Below are positions 10,467 through 46,023 of a stretch of 64,000 bases of DNA, in pieces. Numbering within the stretch: the first letter of the stretch is position 1; each line of letters starts with the position of its first letter. The DNA is taken from positions 1-64,000 of the forward strand of contig NZ_FMZO01000014.1 in NCBI RefSeq assembly GCF_900101395.1. Direction: 5' to 3'. Source of the DNA: Niabella drilacis (GTDB lineage Bacteria; Bacteroidota; Bacteroidia; Chitinophagales; Chitinophagaceae). The notes under the pieces were generated by a model. That model saw only the letters and a program-made list of their open reading frames with translations, had not been told where the DNA came from and did not search any database. The translations under genes were made by a program, and so were the position numbers.

Positions 10467-10669
10467 TGCTGTTTATTTTATACCTGGAAGATACTTGTTT
10501 CTTTTTCACACTATACTTCAGACAGGAAAATAGCGGTTTTCCATATAATTATATTCCGGATGAAACCGGCGTTGTAGACGTATTTTCAAAAAATGGCATA
10601 TTTTTAGATAGACTTGGGTAGCGCCCAGCCAAAATGCGCTGACTTTTAATCAAACTAAAAACGCAAACT

Positions 10670-11956
10670 ATGTCAATCAACATTGTAGATCTTGTTAAGA
10701 ACTATGTTCCCCAGGATCTGATTGCAAAGGCCGGATCCTCTTTGAACGAAAGCGAAGGAAACGTTTCCAACGCAGTGACCGGGATTATCCCTGCAGTTCT
10801 GGGTTTATTTGCCTCCAAAGCAACTTCCGGCGAGCAGGGTGCTGCAGAAGTGCTGGATACCGCCAAAGGCTTTTCCAACAGCGGTATCCTGGGCAATATA
10901 GGCTCACTGTTTGGCAATGCCGACCTTTTATCAAAGGGCACCAGCCTTTTTAAAGGGCTTTTGGGCGATAAAACCAATTCCGTCATCGACAGCATTGCTC
11001 ATTTTGCCGGGATCAAGCCATCCTCCTCAGGATCTCTTATAAGCATGATCGTTCCGCTTGTATTGGGACTGCTTGGAAAACATGCTACCGATAACAACCT
11101 GAATGCCAGTGGATTTTCCAGTTTCCTGGGGTCTCAGAAAGATCATATCCTCGGTGCGCTTCCCTCAGGATTAGGGTCCCTGGGTGCGGCACTGGGGTTG
11201 AACTCCATCAGCGAAGAAGTTCAGCAAACCGTTTCCAATGTTCAGGAAACCGCTGCATCCACTTATAACTACGCAGACCAGGAAGTCCGCAAAGCAGGGG
11301 GAGGCGCCAAATGGCTGCTGCCGCTTTTGCTGCTGGCTGTTATAGCACTTGCATTATTGTATTTCCTCGGAAAAGGTTGCAACAATACGGCAACCCCCGG
11401 AGAGGGATCCGACACTACGGCCGTTGCACCTGCAGACACACTTACAACAACACCCCAGCCTACGGAAGCTCCTGCAGCAAAAACACTTACGGAAGTAACC
11501 CTGCCCGATGGCGTAAAACTGCAGGCGTACCCGGGCGGCATTGAGGACCAGCTGGTACAGTTTATCCAGTCCGACACCTACAAAACAGCAGCCGACAGCA
11601 CATTGAAAGAAAAATGGTTCAATTTTGATGACCTGAACTTCGAGTTTGGCACCACAAAACTGACCGACTCCTCCAAACGTCAGCTGGATAATATTGCAGC
11701 GATATTAAAGGCATTTCCGGATGTAAAGATCAAGGTAGGTGGCTATACGGACAAAAAAGGCGATGACGCCGCAAACCTGAAGCTTTCTGATGGCCGGGCC
11801 AAAGCAGTACAGGCCGCGTTAAAAGCCGCCGGCGTGAGCGCCCAGGTTCCGGAAGCCGAAGGCTATGGCGAAAAACTGGCACAGGTAGATGAAAACGCCT
11901 CGGACGAAGCCAGGGCCGCAGACCGCAGGACCTCTGTAAGACTGTTGAAAAAATGA
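10670..11956 (+). CDS. DUF937 - transmembrane - OmpA-domain protein
   Basis: 428 residues in three parts. The DUF937 domain covers about residues 1-180 (IVDLVKNYVPQDLIAKAGSSLNESE; glycine/serine/leucine-rich repeats). One transmembrane helix is at residues 215-234 (WLLPLLLLAVIALALLYFLG), and a Thr/Pro/Ala-rich linker follows. The C-terminal OmpA-like peptidoglycan-binding domain (about 316-428) has NFEFGTTKLTDSSKRQLDNI, VGGYTDKKG and the closing RRTSVRL. The OmpA domain should reach the periplasm and hold peptidoglycan while DUF937 stays in the cytoplasm, so the protein may link cytoplasm to wall. That topology is inference. There is no signal peptide. A terminator follows the gene. Confidence 0.88.
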   Translation: MSINIVDLVKNYVPQDLIAKAGSSLNESEGNVSNAVTGIIPAVLGLFASKATSGEQGAAEVLDTAKGFSNSGILGNIGSLFGNADLLSKGTSLFKGLLGDKTNSVIDSIAHFAGIKPSSSGSLISMIVPLVLGLLGKHATDNNLNASGFSSFLGSQKDHILGALPSGLGSLGAALGLNSISEEVQQTVSNVQETAASTYNYADQEVRKAGGGAKWLLPLLLLAVIALALLYFLGKGCNNTATPGEGSDTTAVAPADTLTTTPQPTEAPAAKTLTEVTLPDGVKLQAYPGGIEDQLVQFIQSDTYKTAADSTLKEKWFNFDDLNFEFGTTKLTDSSKRQLDNIAAILKAFPDVKIKVGGYTDKKGDDAANLKLSDGRAKAVQAALKAAGVSAQVPEAEGYGEKLAQVDENASDEARAADRRTSVRLLKK

Positions 11957-39531: not shown

Positions 39532-40911
39532 TTAATATTCGTTCTGTTCTGCATTCCAGGTAGACCAGGTCCTGGTCCAGTCCGTGTTTTGATCAAAGGC
39601 GCCTTTGTAAGCAACGGCCTGAAAACCGGAAAGACCATCGAAATTTGCACCGGTAAGCGCAGGAGAGCCCGCTGCTAACAGGAAGCTGGGCGTTGCATTG
39701 AATTTATAGGCATCGGCAACTTTTGCTTCAGCGATCGTAGCTAAAATGGAGTTGTTGCTCTCGATCTGTGGTTTGATGACCGCGTTGGTTGTTTTAACAG
39801 GCTCCGGGCAACCGGCAATAATGTTATTTTTGAACACCAGGCTACCTGCAAGATAATTTAATGAAGTAGCTGTCCCCTTTGTATCATCGATATACACACC
39901 GATCGGGAATCCAACAAACAGGGAATTTACAATTGACAGGGAGGAGTTGCGACGGATCTGAGCTGCATGTTTGAAATACTCATGAATGGTGTTGCCCGTG
40001 CCGTCCATTGGTCCGATAATCGTCATGTTTGAAAAAACTCCTTTTGTTTGAGGAGTGGCAATAGATCCATTACCATCGTTGTCGGATTCAAATCCATTGG
40101 ATTCAGATTTATCCCGATACAGGGGGTTACGCTGGGAAATCCCAAATTGCACTTTTCCGGAAAATCCGTTATCGGTATCAAAATCATCATCCCAGGTACC
40201 GGTAGCGATCAGGTGATCGGCATTTACTGTACCACCAAACCATTCAAAAGCGTCATCGCCGGAACGGTATACCTGTACATAGCTCACCTGTGTTCCAGAC
40301 CCTACACCTCCAAAAGTAATACCATTAATTTCATTGTCCGTAGAGTATTCTACTCCGGCAAACTCAACCCGTACATATTTCAATACTCCGGAGTTATCGG
40401 CAGGATTGGTTCCTCCGTACTGGTTTAATGTTGTTCCGGTTGGAACTGTCAGGCCTCCTTCAATTTTTAATTTATCTTCCGGGAGGTTAACTGGTGCTTT
40501 GCCCAATAGGATCAGGCCACCCCAGTCACCGGCCTTCCTTTGTCCTTTGGGGAAATTGGAGGTAAATACGATGGGTTTATCTGCAGTACCCTGGGCGATG
40601 ATCTTTCCGCCTTTTGCAATGATCAGGGTTCCTTTGGATTTATTATCTCCTTTGATAATGGTACCCGGCTCAATGGTAAGGGTAACGCCATCCGGAACAT
40701 ACACAAACCCTTTGAGCAGGTATTTATTATTTGCGGTCCAGGTTGTACTTGTAGTGATTGTAGAAGGGAGAGGACTACCTGATCCGTCTGCCTGACCGAC
40801 TACGATCTCCGTTCCCGTTTTTGGAGGATCGATGGAGTCGCCTTTATCGTTGCCACAAGAGGCAAAGAACAATGTTGCAATGCCGAACAACAATGTAAAT
40901 TGTTTTTTCAT
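39532..40911 (-). CDS. Beta-helix surface lipoprotein, partner of the TonB-dependent receptor
   Basis: 459 residues. Lipobox in ATLFFASC (cysteine at about residue 19). The mature part has KGFVYVPDGVTLTIEPGTII, GTLIIAKGGKIIAQGTADKP and many asparagine/glycine-rich short strands typical of a right-handed beta helix. Downstream are YVRVEFAGVEYSTDNEINGI and WFGGTVNADHLIATGTWDDDFDTDNG, an aspartate-rich stretch that could bind metal or anionic ligand. It lies 82 bases after the TonB receptor gene on the same strand, as SusD-type partners do, but it has no SusD fold. A role in capturing phosphate-containing ligand at the cell surface is inferred from context only. Confidence 0.78.
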   Translation of the reverse strand: MKKQFTLLFGIATLFFASCGNDKGDSIDPPKTGTEIVVGQADGSGSPLPSTITTSTTWTANNKYLLKGFVYVPDGVTLTIEPGTIIKGDNKSKGTLIIAKGGKIIAQGTADKPIVFTSNFPKGQRKAGDWGGLILLGKAPVNLPEDKLKIEGGLTVPTGTTLNQYGGTNPADNSGVLKYVRVEFAGVEYSTDNEINGITFGGVGSGTQVSYVQVYRSGDDAFEWFGGTVNADHLIATGTWDDDFDTDNGFSGKVQFGISQRNPLYRDKSESNGFESDNDGNGSIATPQTKGVFSNMTIIGPMDGTGNTIHEYFKHAAQIRRNSSLSIVNSLFVGFPIGVYIDDTKGTATSLNYLAGSLVFKNNIIAGCPEPVKTTNAVIKPQIESNNSILATIAEAKVADAYKFNATPSFLLAAGSPALTGANFDGLSGFQAVAYKGAFDQNTDWTRTWSTWNAEQNEY

Positions 40912-40993
40912 ATTCTTAATGTTTAAGTTTTTAAAAGTAGAAGTTTAATATTACCGGATCATTACCTTCCGGTATCGTTTGTGTTAACAATTT

Positions 40994-43768
40994 TTAGAAC
41001 TTATAGGTATAGGAAAGGGTGATGGTGGTGCCCGGACGATATTGTTCCAGGATCCAATCCTTATTCAATGTATTCATCCCGTTCTGGAACGAGCTTCCGT
41101 CAAATTTTTCATTCCCGTTCTGGTCAAAATAGAACCGCACCGGGGCATTCAGGATGTCTTTTGCGTTGAGCTTGAACGCGCTTTTGGGCGTTAGCTGATA
41201 GGATACCTGGGCATCCAGCAGGTTGCGCGGCATTTCATATACCATGCCATAGAGGTTACCGCCAACCAGGTCGATCCGCTGGCCGATCCTGTTGTACAAA
41301 ACATTTGCACCAAACTTATTGTCGCTTGTCTGGTAAGCAAGACCGGTATTAATTGCATAGGGCGACTGACCGGTCAATGGTCTGTCTGAGATCGTAGACC
41401 CGTCCGGCAGGTACAAGGGTCCATCCAGCTTCACCTTTGACCGGATCAGCGCCACATTGGTATAAAATTCCAGTTGCTTCAGGCCTTCGCTGATAAAGTT
41501 CAGTTTCTTCCGGATCTCTGCCTCAAAGCCGATATTGGTAGCAGAAGGGAAGTTATTAGTGGTTACTTCCAGCGCACTTTGTGCCTTATAGATGGATGTT
41601 TCGATCGTATTCTTAAAATTCTTGTAAAACACCGATGCCGAAATGATCTCGCCCGGGGCCAGGAACCATTCATATTTAAGATCAAAATTATCGATCTGTG
41701 AGCGGGTCAGGTCCGGATTCCCCAGTACGTTTGCCATCCGCTCAAAATCATAATAATAGAATGGAGCGATCTCTCTGAATTCCGGCCGGCCCAGGCTTCT
41801 GAAGTAGGAAGCCCTGATATTTGTTTTGGGGGTTATCGAATACGTAAAGTTTGCGGAGGGTAAAAAGTCTTTCCAGGTTTTGCTGAAGTTCTGCGATGAG
41901 TTTACGTTCAGGTTGTAGTACTCATACCGTACGCCCCATACCAGGCGCAGCTTGTTGGTAAACTTGTTGTCCAGCATTACATACCCGGCATAGTTCCCTG
42001 CATTGGCGGTATAGGCATCCTGTCCCTGTGTAAGGTCCTTCAGTGAATAGATATTTGAGCCGATAACACCGGGGGTAAACAACTGGTCAATCGGGCTGCG
42101 CAATACCTCCTGCTCATTTGAAGCTCCCGGATTGATGATGGGCCCGATCATCCTGTTCTTATCATCCCTGTCGCGATAAGCGGCAAATCCACCCAGCTTA
42201 ACCGATGATTTTTCAAAAAGGTTTACCGGTATGGTCAGGTTCACCGCGCCGTTATAGATCTTTTCATTCAGGTCTCCGAACAACCGGTTGTTTTCACGCC
42301 CCAGGTTCCCGAGGTCTGCAATAAAGGCATTGCTGGTTCCCATCGACCGGGAGTAGCCAACCTTCCGCTGATCGGGCCGGTTATTGGTCACCAGGTTAAA
42401 TGATGCCAGGTAATCCAGTACCACGTCATTATCTCCCAGCTTGTTTTCTCCTTTAAATGTATTTTTCAGCAGGGATTTCTGGACCAGGTCAAATGCATAA
42501 AAACGGATATCGCTGCCCCGGCCCAGGTTGGAACCTTCCCTGTAAAGGAAGTTATCATCAAAGATCCGGTTGTATAAATTCTTAAAAGAATATTTGCCCT
42601 TCTTTGTCTGGTAGGACAAATTCAGTAAGGCGCCTATATTGCTGGAGTATTTATAGGTATTATCAATGTAATTATAGTCATCATACTGGCGCAGGGCATT
42701 TCTTTTTACCGTTTCGGAATGGGTATAGGTAATGCCCGCCGTATAACCAAATTTATTGCCGTTGTTAAACACCCGGAGATCTCCCATATTGGCCTGGAGG
42801 TTCAATTGCGGTAATGCCTTATTTGTTTTTATATTGAAATTGTTATTCAGGCTGGATAATGCCGCGTTGATCTGTTCCTGGCTGAGTTGTCTTCCTTCAA
42901 TTGCATCTGTGCCGGGAAAGCTGGCAGGCAGCTGACGGGCGCCATTGTCAAAACCCAGGAAATCGGTTCCGGAACGGTAGCCCGATTTAAAATCCTTAAA
43001 CGTGGCCACGGAATTATAACCTAGGCCAACTGTAAAATCGATGAACTTACGGGTAGGCACTTCTTTGGTGATCACATTGATCACACCGCCGGCAAAATCG
43101 GCCGGGAGGTCCGGGGTTCCGGCCTTGGTAATGATCATATTGTCGATCATCGAAGAGGGAATGATATCAAACGAAAATGCTTTCCGGTTGGGCTCTGTAC
43201 TGGGCAGCAGGGTACCGTCTGTTAAACCCAGGTTGTAACGGTCATTTAAACCACGGATGATTACGAATTTGTTATCCTGCACCGTAGTTCCGCTTACTCT
43301 TTTTAATACATCGCCGGTAGAACGGTCCGGCGACTTGCGGATCGCCTCTGCAGAAATACCATCGGAGATGGAGGCGCTGGTCCGCTGCGCCTGGTACAGG
43401 GACGCAACGGTTCCCTGCTGACGGGCTCTTGCAGACACCACTACACCGGCCAACTCCCCGGAGCTGGGGGCCAGGCTGATGACCAGGCCACTATCTGCAA
43501 CATAACTTCCCTGCCTGTACTGTATGGTCTGTGTAATATAATTAAGTGCCGTTACTTTTATAGCCGCCGTTTTATTGGTGCCTACATTTAACCGGAAGGC
43601 GCCATCTGATTCGGATATGGCCCCTTTGTTGGATCCTTCGATCAACAATGTAGCCCCAGCAACCGGTTCACCCGTTACGGAGTTGGTTATTTTCCCTGTG
43701 ATATTCTGAGAAAAAACAGCGTTACCAAGAACAATTAAAAGCCCTGTGAGCAGCAGCCTAACTTGCAT
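40994..43768 (-). CDS. TonB-dependent receptor with carboxypeptidase-like N-terminal domain
   Basis: 924 residues. Signal peptide (VRLLLTGLLIVLGNAVFSQ), then a CarboxypepD_reg-like domain (ITGKITNSVTGEPVAGATLL, about residues 23-105). The plug domain has AIRKSPDRSTGDVLKRVSGT, FVIIRGLNDRYN and FAGGVINVITKE, and a 22-strand-type barrel ends in TLSYTYKF with terminal phenylalanine. It transports a ligand across the outer membrane using TonB energy. The six-unit Pho-box-like array upstream, the beta-helix lipoprotein downstream and the divergent phosphate transporter suggest that the ligand is phosphate or an organophosphate (inference). Confidence 0.92.
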   Translation of the reverse strand: MQVRLLLTGLLIVLGNAVFSQNITGKITNSVTGEPVAGATLLIEGSNKGAISESDGAFRLNVGTNKTAAIKVTALNYITQTIQYRQGSYVADSGLVISLAPSSGELAGVVVSARARQQGTVASLYQAQRTSASISDGISAEAIRKSPDRSTGDVLKRVSGTTVQDNKFVIIRGLNDRYNLGLTDGTLLPSTEPNRKAFSFDIIPSSMIDNMIITKAGTPDLPADFAGGVINVITKEVPTRKFIDFTVGLGYNSVATFKDFKSGYRSGTDFLGFDNGARQLPASFPGTDAIEGRQLSQEQINAALSSLNNNFNIKTNKALPQLNLQANMGDLRVFNNGNKFGYTAGITYTHSETVKRNALRQYDDYNYIDNTYKYSSNIGALLNLSYQTKKGKYSFKNLYNRIFDDNFLYREGSNLGRGSDIRFYAFDLVQKSLLKNTFKGENKLGDNDVVLDYLASFNLVTNNRPDQRKVGYSRSMGTSNAFIADLGNLGRENNRLFGDLNEKIYNGAVNLTIPVNLFEKSSVKLGGFAAYRDRDDKNRMIGPIINPGASNEQEVLRSPIDQLFTPGVIGSNIYSLKDLTQGQDAYTANAGNYAGYVMLDNKFTNKLRLVWGVRYEYYNLNVNSSQNFSKTWKDFLPSANFTYSITPKTNIRASYFRSLGRPEFREIAPFYYYDFERMANVLGNPDLTRSQIDNFDLKYEWFLAPGEIISASVFYKNFKNTIETSIYKAQSALEVTTNNFPSATNIGFEAEIRKKLNFISEGLKQLEFYTNVALIRSKVKLDGPLYLPDGSTISDRPLTGQSPYAINTGLAYQTSDNKFGANVLYNRIGQRIDLVGGNLYGMVYEMPRNLLDAQVSYQLTPKSAFKLNAKDILNAPVRFYFDQNGNEKFDGSSFQNGMNTLNKDWILEQYRPGTTITLSYTYKF

Positions 43769-43782
43769 ATAGAATATTTCTG

Positions 43783-43790
43783 CAAAGATT
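43783..43790 (-). promoter_or_regulatory. Putative minus-7 element for the TonB receptor gene
   Basis: AATCTTTG on the minus strand, one mismatch to TAnnTTTG. It lies 10 bases from the near end of the Pho-box-like array, which would occupy the place of a minus-33 element. Confidence 0.45.
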
Positions 43791-43800
43791 CAGATCACAT

Positions 43801-43862
43801 TGTTACCTCATTGTTACCCCCATGTTACCAAATCGTCAACCAGGCATTACCTTAATGTTAAC
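43801..43862 (-). promoter_or_regulatory. Pho-box-like array: six direct elements at 11-bp spacing
   Basis: On the plus strand GTTACC-type hexamers start at 43802, 43813, 43824, 43835, 43846 and 43857: GTTACC three times, then GTCAAC, ATTACC and GTTAAC. The period is exactly 11 bp throughout, and three of the first units are preceded by T (TGTTACC), giving 7-bp elements with 4-bp spacers. This is the geometry of PhoB/PhoP binding sites (E. coli CTGTCAT-N4 repeats; B. subtilis TTAACA-type repeats with 11-bp period). The array stands directly upstream of the TonB receptor's minus-7 element and between the receptor and the DUF47-PiT genes. Calling it a Pho box is inference from geometry and context. 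Confidence 0.7.
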
Positions 43863-44014
43863 AGCGGTTGCAGCCGCAGTTTTTTTGTTGAAAAATGAGC
43901 AGAAACTCTTAAAAAAGAGGGGCGTTTTAGTCAAAAAACAGAATGAAATCCTATTTCCTATATTAAGGAATTATTAATTCCTGTAATTTTATCATTATGC
44001 TTCACTGAACGGGA

Positions 44015-44022
44015 TAATTTTG
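44015..44022 (+). promoter_or_regulatory. Putative minus-7 element for the DUF47-PiT operon
   Basis: TAATTTTG, an exact TAnnTTTG match, 22 bases before the DUF47 start. It is 153 bases from the Pho-box-like array, so control by that array is less certain than for the receptor. Confidence 0.45.
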
Positions 44023-44044: not shown

Positions 44045-44692
44045 ATGGGACTCAATTCTTTTCTAAAAATTTTTACCCCCAGCAATACCGTTTTTTTTGA
44101 ATTGTTTGAAAAAATAGCAGCCAATGTAACTTCTATGGGGAAGCTTTTAAAGCAGATGGTGAATGAAACCGATATCAATAAACGGAATTCTCTTTCCCAG
44201 TCCATTATTGATATGGAGCATGGCAACGATGAGCTGACCCACAGCGTATTTACCGAACTGGGGAGGAACTTCATCACCCCGTTTGACCGGGAAGACATCC
44301 ACTACCTGGCTACCTCGCTGGATGATATTGCCGACTATATTTATGCTACCGCCAAAAAGATCACTACCTACCGGGTAAACCCGAATGAAACCGGGATACA
44401 GAAAATGGCAGAGCTGATCGTACAGGCAGCAGAGCAGGTACAGGCGGCAGTAATGGAACTGCGGGATATGAAGAAGGTCCGCAATATTACAGAGGCCCTG
44501 GTAAAGATCAACAGTATCGAAAACCAGGCAGATGATGTGTTTGACCTGAGCATTGAGTATTTATTTGATACTGAGGCCGATGCCAAAGAAGTGATCAAGA
44601 AGAGAGAAGTATACCAGGCAATGGAGGTGGTTACGGATAAATGTGAGGATGTAGGGAACGTGATTGAATCGATTATCATCAAATATGCATAA
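44045..44692 (+). CDS. DUF47 (PhoU-like) phosphate transport regulator
   Basis: 215 residues, all-helical PhoU-like fold of the DUF47/Pit accessory family. Visible features are FFELFEKIAANVTSMGKLL, a DMEHGNDELTHSVFTELGRNFITPFDREDI segment split by a conserved acidic turn, and a second repeat with KINSIENQADDVFDLSI and CEDVGNVIESIIIKYA. Such proteins partner PiT transporters encoded directly downstream, as here (98-base gap). They probably control transport activity in the cytoplasm. The gap holds two tandem GCACATTA units (44771-44786). Confidence 0.92.
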   Translation: MGLNSFLKIFTPSNTVFFELFEKIAANVTSMGKLLKQMVNETDINKRNSLSQSIIDMEHGNDELTHSVFTELGRNFITPFDREDIHYLATSLDDIADYIYATAKKITTYRVNPNETGIQKMAELIVQAAEQVQAAVMELRDMKKVRNITEALVKINSIENQADDVFDLSIEYLFDTEADAKEVIKKREVYQAMEVVTDKCEDVGNVIESIIIKYA

Positions 44693-44790: not shown

Positions 44791-46023
44791 ATGTTTACCT
44801 ATCTTGTTGTCATCATATCCCTGGCCCTGGTGTTCGATTATATCAACGGGTTTCATGATGCGGCCAACTCCATAGCCACGGTTGTTTCCACAAAAGTGCT
44901 TACACCCTTCCAGGCAGTTATCTGGGCAGCTCTTTTCAATTTTGTTGCCTATTTTATTTTTAAAGATCACGGGGTAGCCAATACCATTGCCAAAACGGTT
45001 AAGGAAAATTTCATCGACCTCAACGTGATCTTTGCCGGGCTTGTGGCCGCCATTATCTGGAACCTGTTTACCTGGTGGCGGGGCATTCCTTCTTCATCTT
45101 CACACACCCTCATCGGCGGATTTGCCGGGGCGGGTATTTCTCATGCTATCGGAATGGGCACCGGCAACCCGTTCACCGCCGTAAATTCCAGCGTGATCCT
45201 GACCATTGCCGCGTTCATCTTCCTGGCGCCGGTCATTGGAATGATCGTAGCTTTCCTGTTTTCCATCTGGTTCATAAACTCATTTAAAAAAGGCTGGCGG
45301 GTAAAACTTTTTTCCTTCCTGGTGATTGCCGCGGTATTTGTTTTCTTAAGTTTTGTGCTGGAGACCGATCCGGAAAAACTGAAATCGCATTACGAATCCT
45401 ATGCACTTAAGGTCGTCTTTTATTCCCATAATTTTAAATACATTCTGCTGGGACTGATCCTGATCATTATGGCCATTTTCTCCCTTTTCTTAAGCGGATT
45501 GAATGCGCACCGGGCCAATATCTGGTTCAAGCGGCTGCAGCTGGTTTCATCGGCCATCTTCAGTATCGGGCATGGCGGCAATGATGCTCAAAAAGTAATG
45601 GGGATCATTATGGTAGCCCTGGTGGCCTACGATCCCAATACCTACAACCTGAACCATATGGTGGTTTGGGTACCGCTGGCCTGTTACACGGCTATTGCCC
45701 TGGGCACCATGAGCGGTGGCTGGAAAATTGTAAAAACCATGGGGACCAAGATCACCAAGGTAACACCTTTTGAAGGGGTGGCTGCAGAAACCGCGGGAGC
45801 GCTAACCCTGTTTGCAACCGAGGCCATGAAGATACCGGTAAGTACCACCCATACGATTACCGGCTCCATTATGGGGGTGGGCGCCACCAAACGCTTATCC
45901 GCCGTGCGCTGGGGGGTAACCATCAACCTGGTCTGGGCCTGGATCCTTACTATACCGGTAAGTGCCGTGCTGGCCAGTCTTGTTTACTTCATTATGAAAC
46001 TGGTGGTCCCGGGGATCCAGTAG
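44791..46023 (+). CDS. Inorganic phosphate transporter, PiT family
   Basis: 410 residues with about ten membrane helices. The duplicated PiT signature is seen as DYINGFHDAANSIATVVSTKVL in the first half and SIGHGGNDAQKVMG in the second. SSSHTLIGGFAGAGISHA and STTHTITGSIMGVGA are the paired S-x-H-T loops. It imports phosphate, generally as a metal-phosphate complex, with proton or sodium. Co-transcribed with the DUF47 gene and ended by a strong terminator. It complements the outer-membrane components on the opposite strand. Confidence 0.96.
   Translation: MFTYLVVIISLALVFDYINGFHDAANSIATVVSTKVLTPFQAVIWAALFNFVAYFIFKDHGVANTIAKTVKENFIDLNVIFAGLVAAIIWNLFTWWRGIPSSSSHTLIGGFAGAGISHAIGMGTGNPFTAVNSSVILTIAAFIFLAPVIGMIVAFLFSIWFINSFKKGWRVKLFSFLVIAAVFVFLSFVLETDPEKLKSHYESYALKVVFYSHNFKYILLGLILIIMAIFSLFLSGLNAHRANIWFKRLQLVSSAIFSIGHGGNDAQKVMGIIMVALVAYDPNTYNLNHMVVWVPLACYTAIALGTMSGGWKIVKTMGTKITKVTPFEGVAAETAGALTLFATEAMKIPVSTTHTITGSIMGVGATKRLSAVRWGVTINLVWAWILTIPVSAVLASLVYFIMKLVVPGIQ

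Follow-up and report, generated by a model that had tools for sequence, protein, structure and literature searches.

A predicted phosphate-starvation operator of 11-bp direct repeats ahead of a TonB receptor gene in Niabella drilacis

A six-unit array of direct repeats with a period of 11 bp (43801..43862, minus strand) lies ahead of a TonB-dependent receptor gene in Niabella drilacis. Comparison of sequences across relatives makes it highly probable that this array is a Pho box, bound by a PhoB-type regulator, that activates the receptor and its lipoprotein partner during phosphate starvation. The array was studied in a stretch of 64,000 nucleotides, here termed the window, which is part of contig C34 of a 6.1-Mb genome (G000). 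An earlier note on this DNA had suggested that the array may be a Bacteroidota Pho box, and sequence tests now support this suggestion through the conservation of the array and its recurrence at pst and plcP genes.

On the forward strand, hexamers occur at 43802, 43813 and 43824 (GTTACC), 43835 (GTCAAC), 43846 (ATTACC) and 43857 (GTTAAC). The period is exactly 11 bp and all six are found where the earlier note had placed them, with a T before each of the three GTTACC copies. GTTACC is not the unit as the receptor promoter reads it, however. Read on the minus strand, toward the receptor, the unit becomes (G/T)TAACA-N5, with GTAACA-N5 where the forward strand has GTTACC, and the six units read GTTAACATTAA GGTAATGCCTG GTTGACGATTT GGTAACATGGG GGTAACAATGA GGTAACAATGT, then GATCTGAATCTTTGC. 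The likeness to known Pho boxes had been missed because the opposite strand was read.

In the 6,099,002 bases of the genome there is a single copy of the exact triple GTTACC(N5)GTTACC(N5)GTTACC. With up to three mismatches it occurs at 9 places, three of them within the array, compared to 10 for the backward pattern, so that only the perfect copy stands out. A profile model termed R1, which was trained on 35 receptor, pst and plcP sites from other genomes, finds the array at E = 1.6e-5 genome-wide and 1.6e-7 within the window.

The receptor (40994..43768, minus strand) is a protein of 924 aa with a CarboxypepD_reg-like domain and matches to Pfam PF00593, PF07715 and PF13715. Homologues at E <= 1e-100 are present in 74 of 117 genomes of the family. 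The check proposed earlier, conservation before receptor orthologues, came out positively: 11-bp arrays are found upstream of all 30 homologues examined among those 74, the window's own included. None of 100 dinucleotide shuffles of the window's receptor upstream region reached the array score, and the same holds for 28 of the 30 homologue arrays, while a single shuffle reached it in L018 and in L037; this score was chosen after the loci had been inspected. In 28 receptor promoters, TAAY pairs number 92, 62 and 46 at spacings of 11, 22 and 33 bp, compared to 0-12 at other spacings. A Pho box consists of at least two head-to-tail 11-bp units, and both the six units of the array and these peaks show that arrangement.

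The -7 element of Bacteroidota promoters has the consensus TAnnTTTG. The unit consensus of the receptor promoters is (C/G)(G/T)TAA(C/T)ATT(C/G), and TA-nn-TTTG follows ahead of the start. When the promoters are aligned on TTTGC (where several TTTG are near, the one fitting the array was used), the last unit shows an invariant TAA at -18 to -16 in the 29 other genomes, and T and A are near-invariant at -29, -40 and -51 and two bases on. In the window, sequence, spacing and alignment identify a -7-like element, AATCTTTG (43783..43790, minus strand), which is imperfect: at its start, two bases are out of register with TA. The array had been said to end about 10 bp upstream of this element. The distance to TTTG is 11 bp here, 1 bp off the relatives, and 10 bp in 24 of the 25 other homologues. 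Of the 26 homologues measured in total, 24 have TTTGC starting 10 bp past the last unit, and the two exceptions are G000 (11 bp) and L032 (21 bp); the measurement gave no value for L017, L018, L034 and L038. Known Pho boxes occupy a fixed place just upstream of the -10 or -7 element, and such a place is seen at the receptor and also at pst and plcP.

The next gene downstream of the receptor (39532..40911, minus strand) encodes a lipoprotein of 459 aa, which is considered the partner of the receptor and has homologues with a box. It has no Pfam or NCBIfam matches; a beta-helix fold is a guess from its resemblance to the FI/FII proteins of Flavobacterium johnsoniae. Ahead of the gene is a second, weaker predicted Pho box of four units with the -7 element TACTTTTA (40932..40989, minus strand; A4 17.5, F 20.2 at locus L086), which R1 finds at E 0.027 genome-wide and E 0.00028 within the window. 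The receptor and lipoprotein most likely form a previously uncharacterised pair tied to phosphate acquisition.

If the array is a Pho box, similar arrays should precede phosphate-starvation genes. The training set of a weight matrix (W) comprised 29 receptor promoters (L010-L038), all inspected beforehand, and excluded the plcP and pst sets. PstC is found above the curated cut-off in 36 of 117 genomes, and 40 of the 43 pstC genes above cut-off were used (G054:C33, G062:C19 and G013:C68 were left out). A box with a -7 element (F >= 20) occurs in 18 of these 40 pst upstream regions, while the mirrored matrix never scores above 9.2 and marks no region. A scan of both strands of the pst regions (248,621 bases) yields 18 sites at F >= 15 and none with the mirrored matrix. 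As a control, 80 loci of GldM, a Bacteroidota gliding protein that nine of nine relatives carry, were scanned in flavobacteria (229,930 bases; loci among the matches listed), and no site at F >= 15 was found. These loci, of which there are at least 80, are mostly from Flavobacterium and other flavobacteria, with no F. johnsoniae among the matches listed. The remaining 22 of the 40 pst regions have no box, and two of those (L187, L207) are cut by contig ends.

Each pst box is located 2.5-2.8 kb ahead of pstC, directly before a gene for a porin-like protein of 390-490 aa that heads the pst operon. The term porin-like reflects BLASTP similarity between relatives together with weak matches to PF07396 in G092, G014 and G088; one such protein checked individually gave no Pfam match, and PF07396 porins as a class have a box in just 5 of 30 loci. 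In L191 the order is DUF47 and PiT (divergent), box, porin-like gene, PstS (PF12849) and pstC, where PstS, DUF47 and PiT were assigned by Pfam. In six genomes with two pst operons (G014, G018, G035, G065, G113, G116), the box is present at one copy and absent from the other in 6 of 6 cases. The window genome itself has no PstC and no Porin_O_P matches. As a side observation, the regions L179-L218 contain two kinds of pst operon in the window's family, one headed by a porin-like gene with a Pho box and one boxless.

The plcP gene provides a further set of targets. Membrane-lipid remodelling under phosphate shortage is the work of PlcP and a glycosyltransferase, and passages of PMC4796936 describe putative Pho boxes at plcP clusters of marine bacteria. 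A plcP homologue is present at E <= 1e-50 in 85 of 117 genomes. Matrix W (F >= 15) finds a box at 25 of 30 plcP loci, with the array end 27-31 bp before the start of the match, compared to 1 of 30 for the mirrored matrix; the loci without a box are L153, L157 and L162 and two at contig edges (L173, L175). TAAY pairs in 27 plcP promoters number 28, 19 and 13 at 11, 22 and 33 bp, compared to 0-4 at other spacings. The plcP gene of the window genome (Metallophos) has a box at C45:32082-32138 and is followed by a glycosyltransferase gene (PF13528). A position before phosphate-starvation genes, which is expected of a Pho box and which the earlier note had proposed to look for in relatives, is therefore found in these pst regions, at these plcP loci and at plcP of the window genome.

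Whole-genome searches with R1 give a consistent distribution. At E <= 0.05, the window genome has only three matches, at the receptor, plcP (0.009) and the lipoprotein. Matches are also present in 37 of 39 relatives' genomes. Thirty family loci comprise 15 at receptor-like genes (one being the window's own), 5 at lipoprotein genes, 3 at large TonB genes, 1 at phoB and 6 that are unlabelled or ORF-less; two of the 30 (L377, L378) are training sites. In a phylum search at E <= 0.001 with strict filters, 92 of 238 genomes match. Twenty-nine loci newly taken from the best hits precede genes for TonB receptors (12), porin-like proteins (6), PstS (2), lipoproteins (2) or unlabelled products (3), with single cases of a PstC-like protein (BPD_transp_1), PlcP, a metallophosphoesterase (PF00149) and a Na/Pi symporter (PF02690). 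Four of them (L406, L407, L414, L418) are training sites, and 22 of the other 25 are at a TonB receptor (10), porin-like protein (5), PstS (2), PstC (1), lipoprotein (2), metallophosphoesterase (1) or Na/Pi symporter (1). At distant loci, "receptor" means BLASTP similarity to the window receptor, often 26-40%, and may include related TonB receptors. Arrays are also found singly before a type I phosphodiesterase gene, a SusCD locus with a phosphonate-oxygenase-like gene, a Na/Pi symporter gene and phoB; some surveyed regions were chosen for holding array hits or a nearby phoB.

Some of the loci are of interest in their own right. In L254:2391-12071, a Pho box precedes a SusC/SusD pair (both by family models) and then a phosphodiesterase-like gene; further genes are Phn-HD oxygenase-like (201.6 bits, cut-off 214.6) and, by eye, HAD-, MFS- and FAD-like. 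This is perhaps a locus for phosphonate uptake and degradation. In L386 and L388, strong Pho boxes (F 48.5 and 40.1) precede genes for similar secreted proteins of about 490 aa, and the L386 protein has a choice-of-anchor I domain.

The regulator of the array is most likely the product of G000:C41:86603-87259, the best PhoB-like match in the window genome (224.6 bits; the next listed match has 177.7). It contains a receiver and a Trans_reg_C domain, and a PhoR-like histidine kinase is encoded behind it that scores best with the PnpS, WalK and PhoR models, all below cut-offs. The candidate is below the NCBIfam cut-offs (TIGR02154, 225.1 compared to 296.2 bits; NF053854, 207.2 compared to 270 bits), and the TIGR02154 cut-off is reached in none of 60 genomes. 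Directly upstream of phoB, 0 of 30 loci have a site at F >= 15, and two such sites occur elsewhere in those loci. A box before phoB is seen in single cases, at L395 (F 27.0) and, more weakly, L059 (F 11.2).

A mechanism can be proposed from these features. In phosphate starvation, phosphorylated PhoB would fill the 11-bp half-sites head-to-tail on one face of the DNA. With the -33 element absent, it would take over that role and keep RNA polymerase at the -7 element, which follows about 10 bp downstream. The TonB receptor and lipoprotein would then be switched on, allowing uptake of phosphate or organic phosphate as the presumed ligand. More units would bind more regulator and produce a steeper switch.

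It is unlikely that the array is instead bound by another regulator of the OmpR/PhoB family whose main signal is not phosphate but, for example, redox or envelope state, with phosphate genes as only part of its regulon. Each genome does hold 1 to 15 PhoB-like regulators at E <= 1e-40, although the best PhoB match is encoded about 3-25 kb from the receptor, plcP or pst in several relatives (G051, G003, G053, G036, G039, G008, G023), near array-bearing genes. The motif of Riemerella anatipestifer PhoP, in which TTTAACA is most conserved, is reported in passages of PMC9603813 to resemble that of Escherichia coli ArcA. The genes found at the array argue for phosphate, however: all three sites of the window genome are at phosphate-linked genes, and the 22 of 25 non-training phylum loci are at transport, porin-like or phosphate genes, including PstS, PstC and the Na/Pi symporter.

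On the other side of the intergenic region, the plus strand encodes a DUF47 (PhoU_div) protein (44045..44692) and a PiT phosphate transporter (44791..46023), and matches to PF01865 and PF01384 confirm the divergent pair named earlier. This pair had also been given a share in the array. That the array chiefly serves DUF47-PiT has very little probability, since it points to the receptor and keeps its distance to the receptor -7 element, and the array as a PiT operator was dropped because of this orientation. Divergent DUF47-PiT genes adjoin a receptor or porin gene in five of eight mapped regions (L250, L251, L253, L255, L256) and stand beside the pst operon in L191, but the L252 receptor has its array with no DUF47 neighbour. 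Moreover, DUF47-PiT has a conserved box and -7 element of its own. The -7 element, TAATTTTG (44015..44022, plus strand), was identified by comparison of 14 genomes, and a separate two-unit box, AATTAATAATTCC/TTAATA (43958..43979, minus strand), is marked by E 0.043 in the window and by conservation.

The sequence 35 bp upstream of the DUF47-PiT -7 element is TATTAAGGAATTATTAATT, whose minus strand forms two 11-bp units, and the box contains a GGAATTA/TAATTCC inverted repeat. With up to two mismatches, TATTAAGGAATTATTAATT has 30 occurrences among the loci scanned, a number that counts the same place more than once and takes in a few other settings. In 14 genomes selected for having the box, it carries 0-2 mismatches; in 11 of these the distance from the box to TAnnTTTG is 34-35 bp, and 12 have a DUF47-like ORF of at least 100 aa after it. 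The two-unit box may let PhoB control PiT. Since orfA-pit of Sinorhizobium meliloti is repressed at low phosphate (passages of PMC3131613, citing Bardin et al.), it is a fair guess that PhoB would repress DUF47-PiT through this box.

The idea that the array is a functionless chance or low-complexity repeat can practically be set aside: the bare three-unit pattern TAAYA(N6)x3 does have many chance matches (181 compared to 95 for the control in 117 genomes), but the array's fixed register is conserved in 29 other genomes, and it recurs at unrelated phosphate genes in searches with a matrix trained without them. The case for a Pho box is not built on bare-pattern counts, because these are only about twofold over the control and 13 of 30 loci taken from the pattern have no phosphate-type label (17 are labelled, L062 at a non-pattern site).

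In two relatives (G051 and G003), a strong box with a -7 element is aimed into a gap with no obvious gene, where the short ORFs share no sequence. A candidate small RNA is seen in such places, with an invariant core, TTCTCATG, 34-72 bp on from the box and -7 element, followed by a hairpin with a run of Ts. The core has 32 hits with up to two mismatches in the loci scanned, and 8 of these have an upstream box, in six genomes and with a common layout; a seventh case (G068) is cut by the locus edge. The candidate loci are L250:10521-10710, L251:10493-10660, L153, L150:3429-3561, L256:9715-9831, L165 and L169, and an example is that of G051:C20 (L250, about 10575-10710). Folding is no better than in shuffles (z -1.0 and -1.3), and the evidence for the small RNA therefore consists of the promoter, the core and the terminator-like hairpin. 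Rfam gives 14 matches in L250:10400-10800, all below the gathering score and mostly to microRNA models. In the window there are no Rfam matches at the gathering score and no tRNA, and the loci scanned from the window genome contain no core hit.

A broader proposal can be offered tentatively. One operator code, in which TAAC/T-A units recur every 11 bp and the array stops 10 bp short of TAnnTTTG, might run the phosphate-starvation response in much of Bacteroidota. It might also drive the unannotated small RNA with the invariant core UUCUCAUG, which in six genomes of the window's family is located close to plcP or the receptor, with PhoB activating the receptor while turning down DUF47-PiT via 43958-43979. 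The box would allow much of the phosphate regulon to be predicted from sequence in many Bacteroidota, with TonB receptors, lipoproteins, porin-like proteins and the candidate small RNA as predictable targets. This bears on the mobilisation of phosphorus by soil and plant bacteria.

The box is weak or altered in flavobacteria. The bare pattern is not enriched in six flavobacterial genomes (4 compared to 8 for the control), and only 2 of 22 flavobacterial plcP promoters reach F 15 (24 genomes searched, two with no plcP match), the rest showing weaker 11-bp pairs by eye. The strong array form is therefore assigned to the window's family and various other families in the phylum, and a separate box seems to be required in flavobacteria. 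The Flavobacterium plcP promoters L346-L361 share, by eye, TCA(C/T)AATTT..TAAAATT, then TGATAACCTTTTGATAAAA, which is maybe a flavobacterial Pho box.

The PhoP box of Bacillus subtilis is TT(A/T)ACA-N5. This hexamer is nearly identical to that of the array and has the same 11-bp period, while the phylum, promoter type and target genes differ. The earlier note had held that the array differs from both the E. coli and the Bacillus boxes, which applies to the former, whose CTGTCAT core is absent here (the array core is GTAACAT/TTAATAT), but hardly to the latter. The E. coli Pho box has two 11-bp units with the CTGTCAT core, and PhoB occupies direct repeats there (passages of PMC4415409). It resembles the array in its 11-bp direct repeats about 10 bp before a -10-type element (passages of PMC1906773) and in its pst targets; it differs in that the array has TAACAT instead of TGTCAT, is longer and adjoins another promoter element. 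The cyanobacterial SphR Pho box, CTTAACCT, has at least 3 units with a 3-bp linker according to passages of PMC1906773, and shares with the array the 11-bp period, the minimum of three units, the TTAAC core and the position before pst and phosphatase genes. In comparison, the arrays described here often have 4-6 units, with G or T before TAAC and then a TAnnTTTG -7 element, and their targets include TonB receptors and lipoproteins.

Passages of PMC4415409 and PMC1906773 describe Pho boxes from Proteobacteria, Bacillus, Streptomyces and cyanobacteria, and no definition of a Bacteroidota Pho operator was found in the open-licence papers searched. In Bacteroides fragilis, pstC depends on a PhoB homologue (passages of PMC3547664). 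R. anatipestifer PhoP, which belongs to the same regulator family and likewise comes from Bacteroidota, has a TTAACA core: its DAP-seq motif is TTTAACA, and EMSA was performed on a TonB receptor promoter among others (passages of PMC9603813). It differs in that it is described as a regulator of virulence, with 583 peaks, and those passages mention no 11-bp array or phosphate operator.

There is a likeness in gene content to F. johnsoniae, where low phosphate strongly induces TonB transporters and polygalacturonase-like FI/FII lipoproteins (Fjoh_3856/3857, Fjoh_0545/0546) together with PlcP, a glycosyltransferase and PhoB, according to passages of PMC8115612. The shared gene classes are the TonB transporter with lipoprotein, PlcP, glycosyltransferase, PusCD and PhoBR. 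That work is on expression only, and "pho box", "motif" and "promoter" are absent from the main text of PMC8115612. Compared with these systems, the array appears to be a lineage-specific variant of the Pho box, in which autoregulation is mostly not seen and which would be distinguished by its own core, its long arrays and its Bacteroidota promoter.
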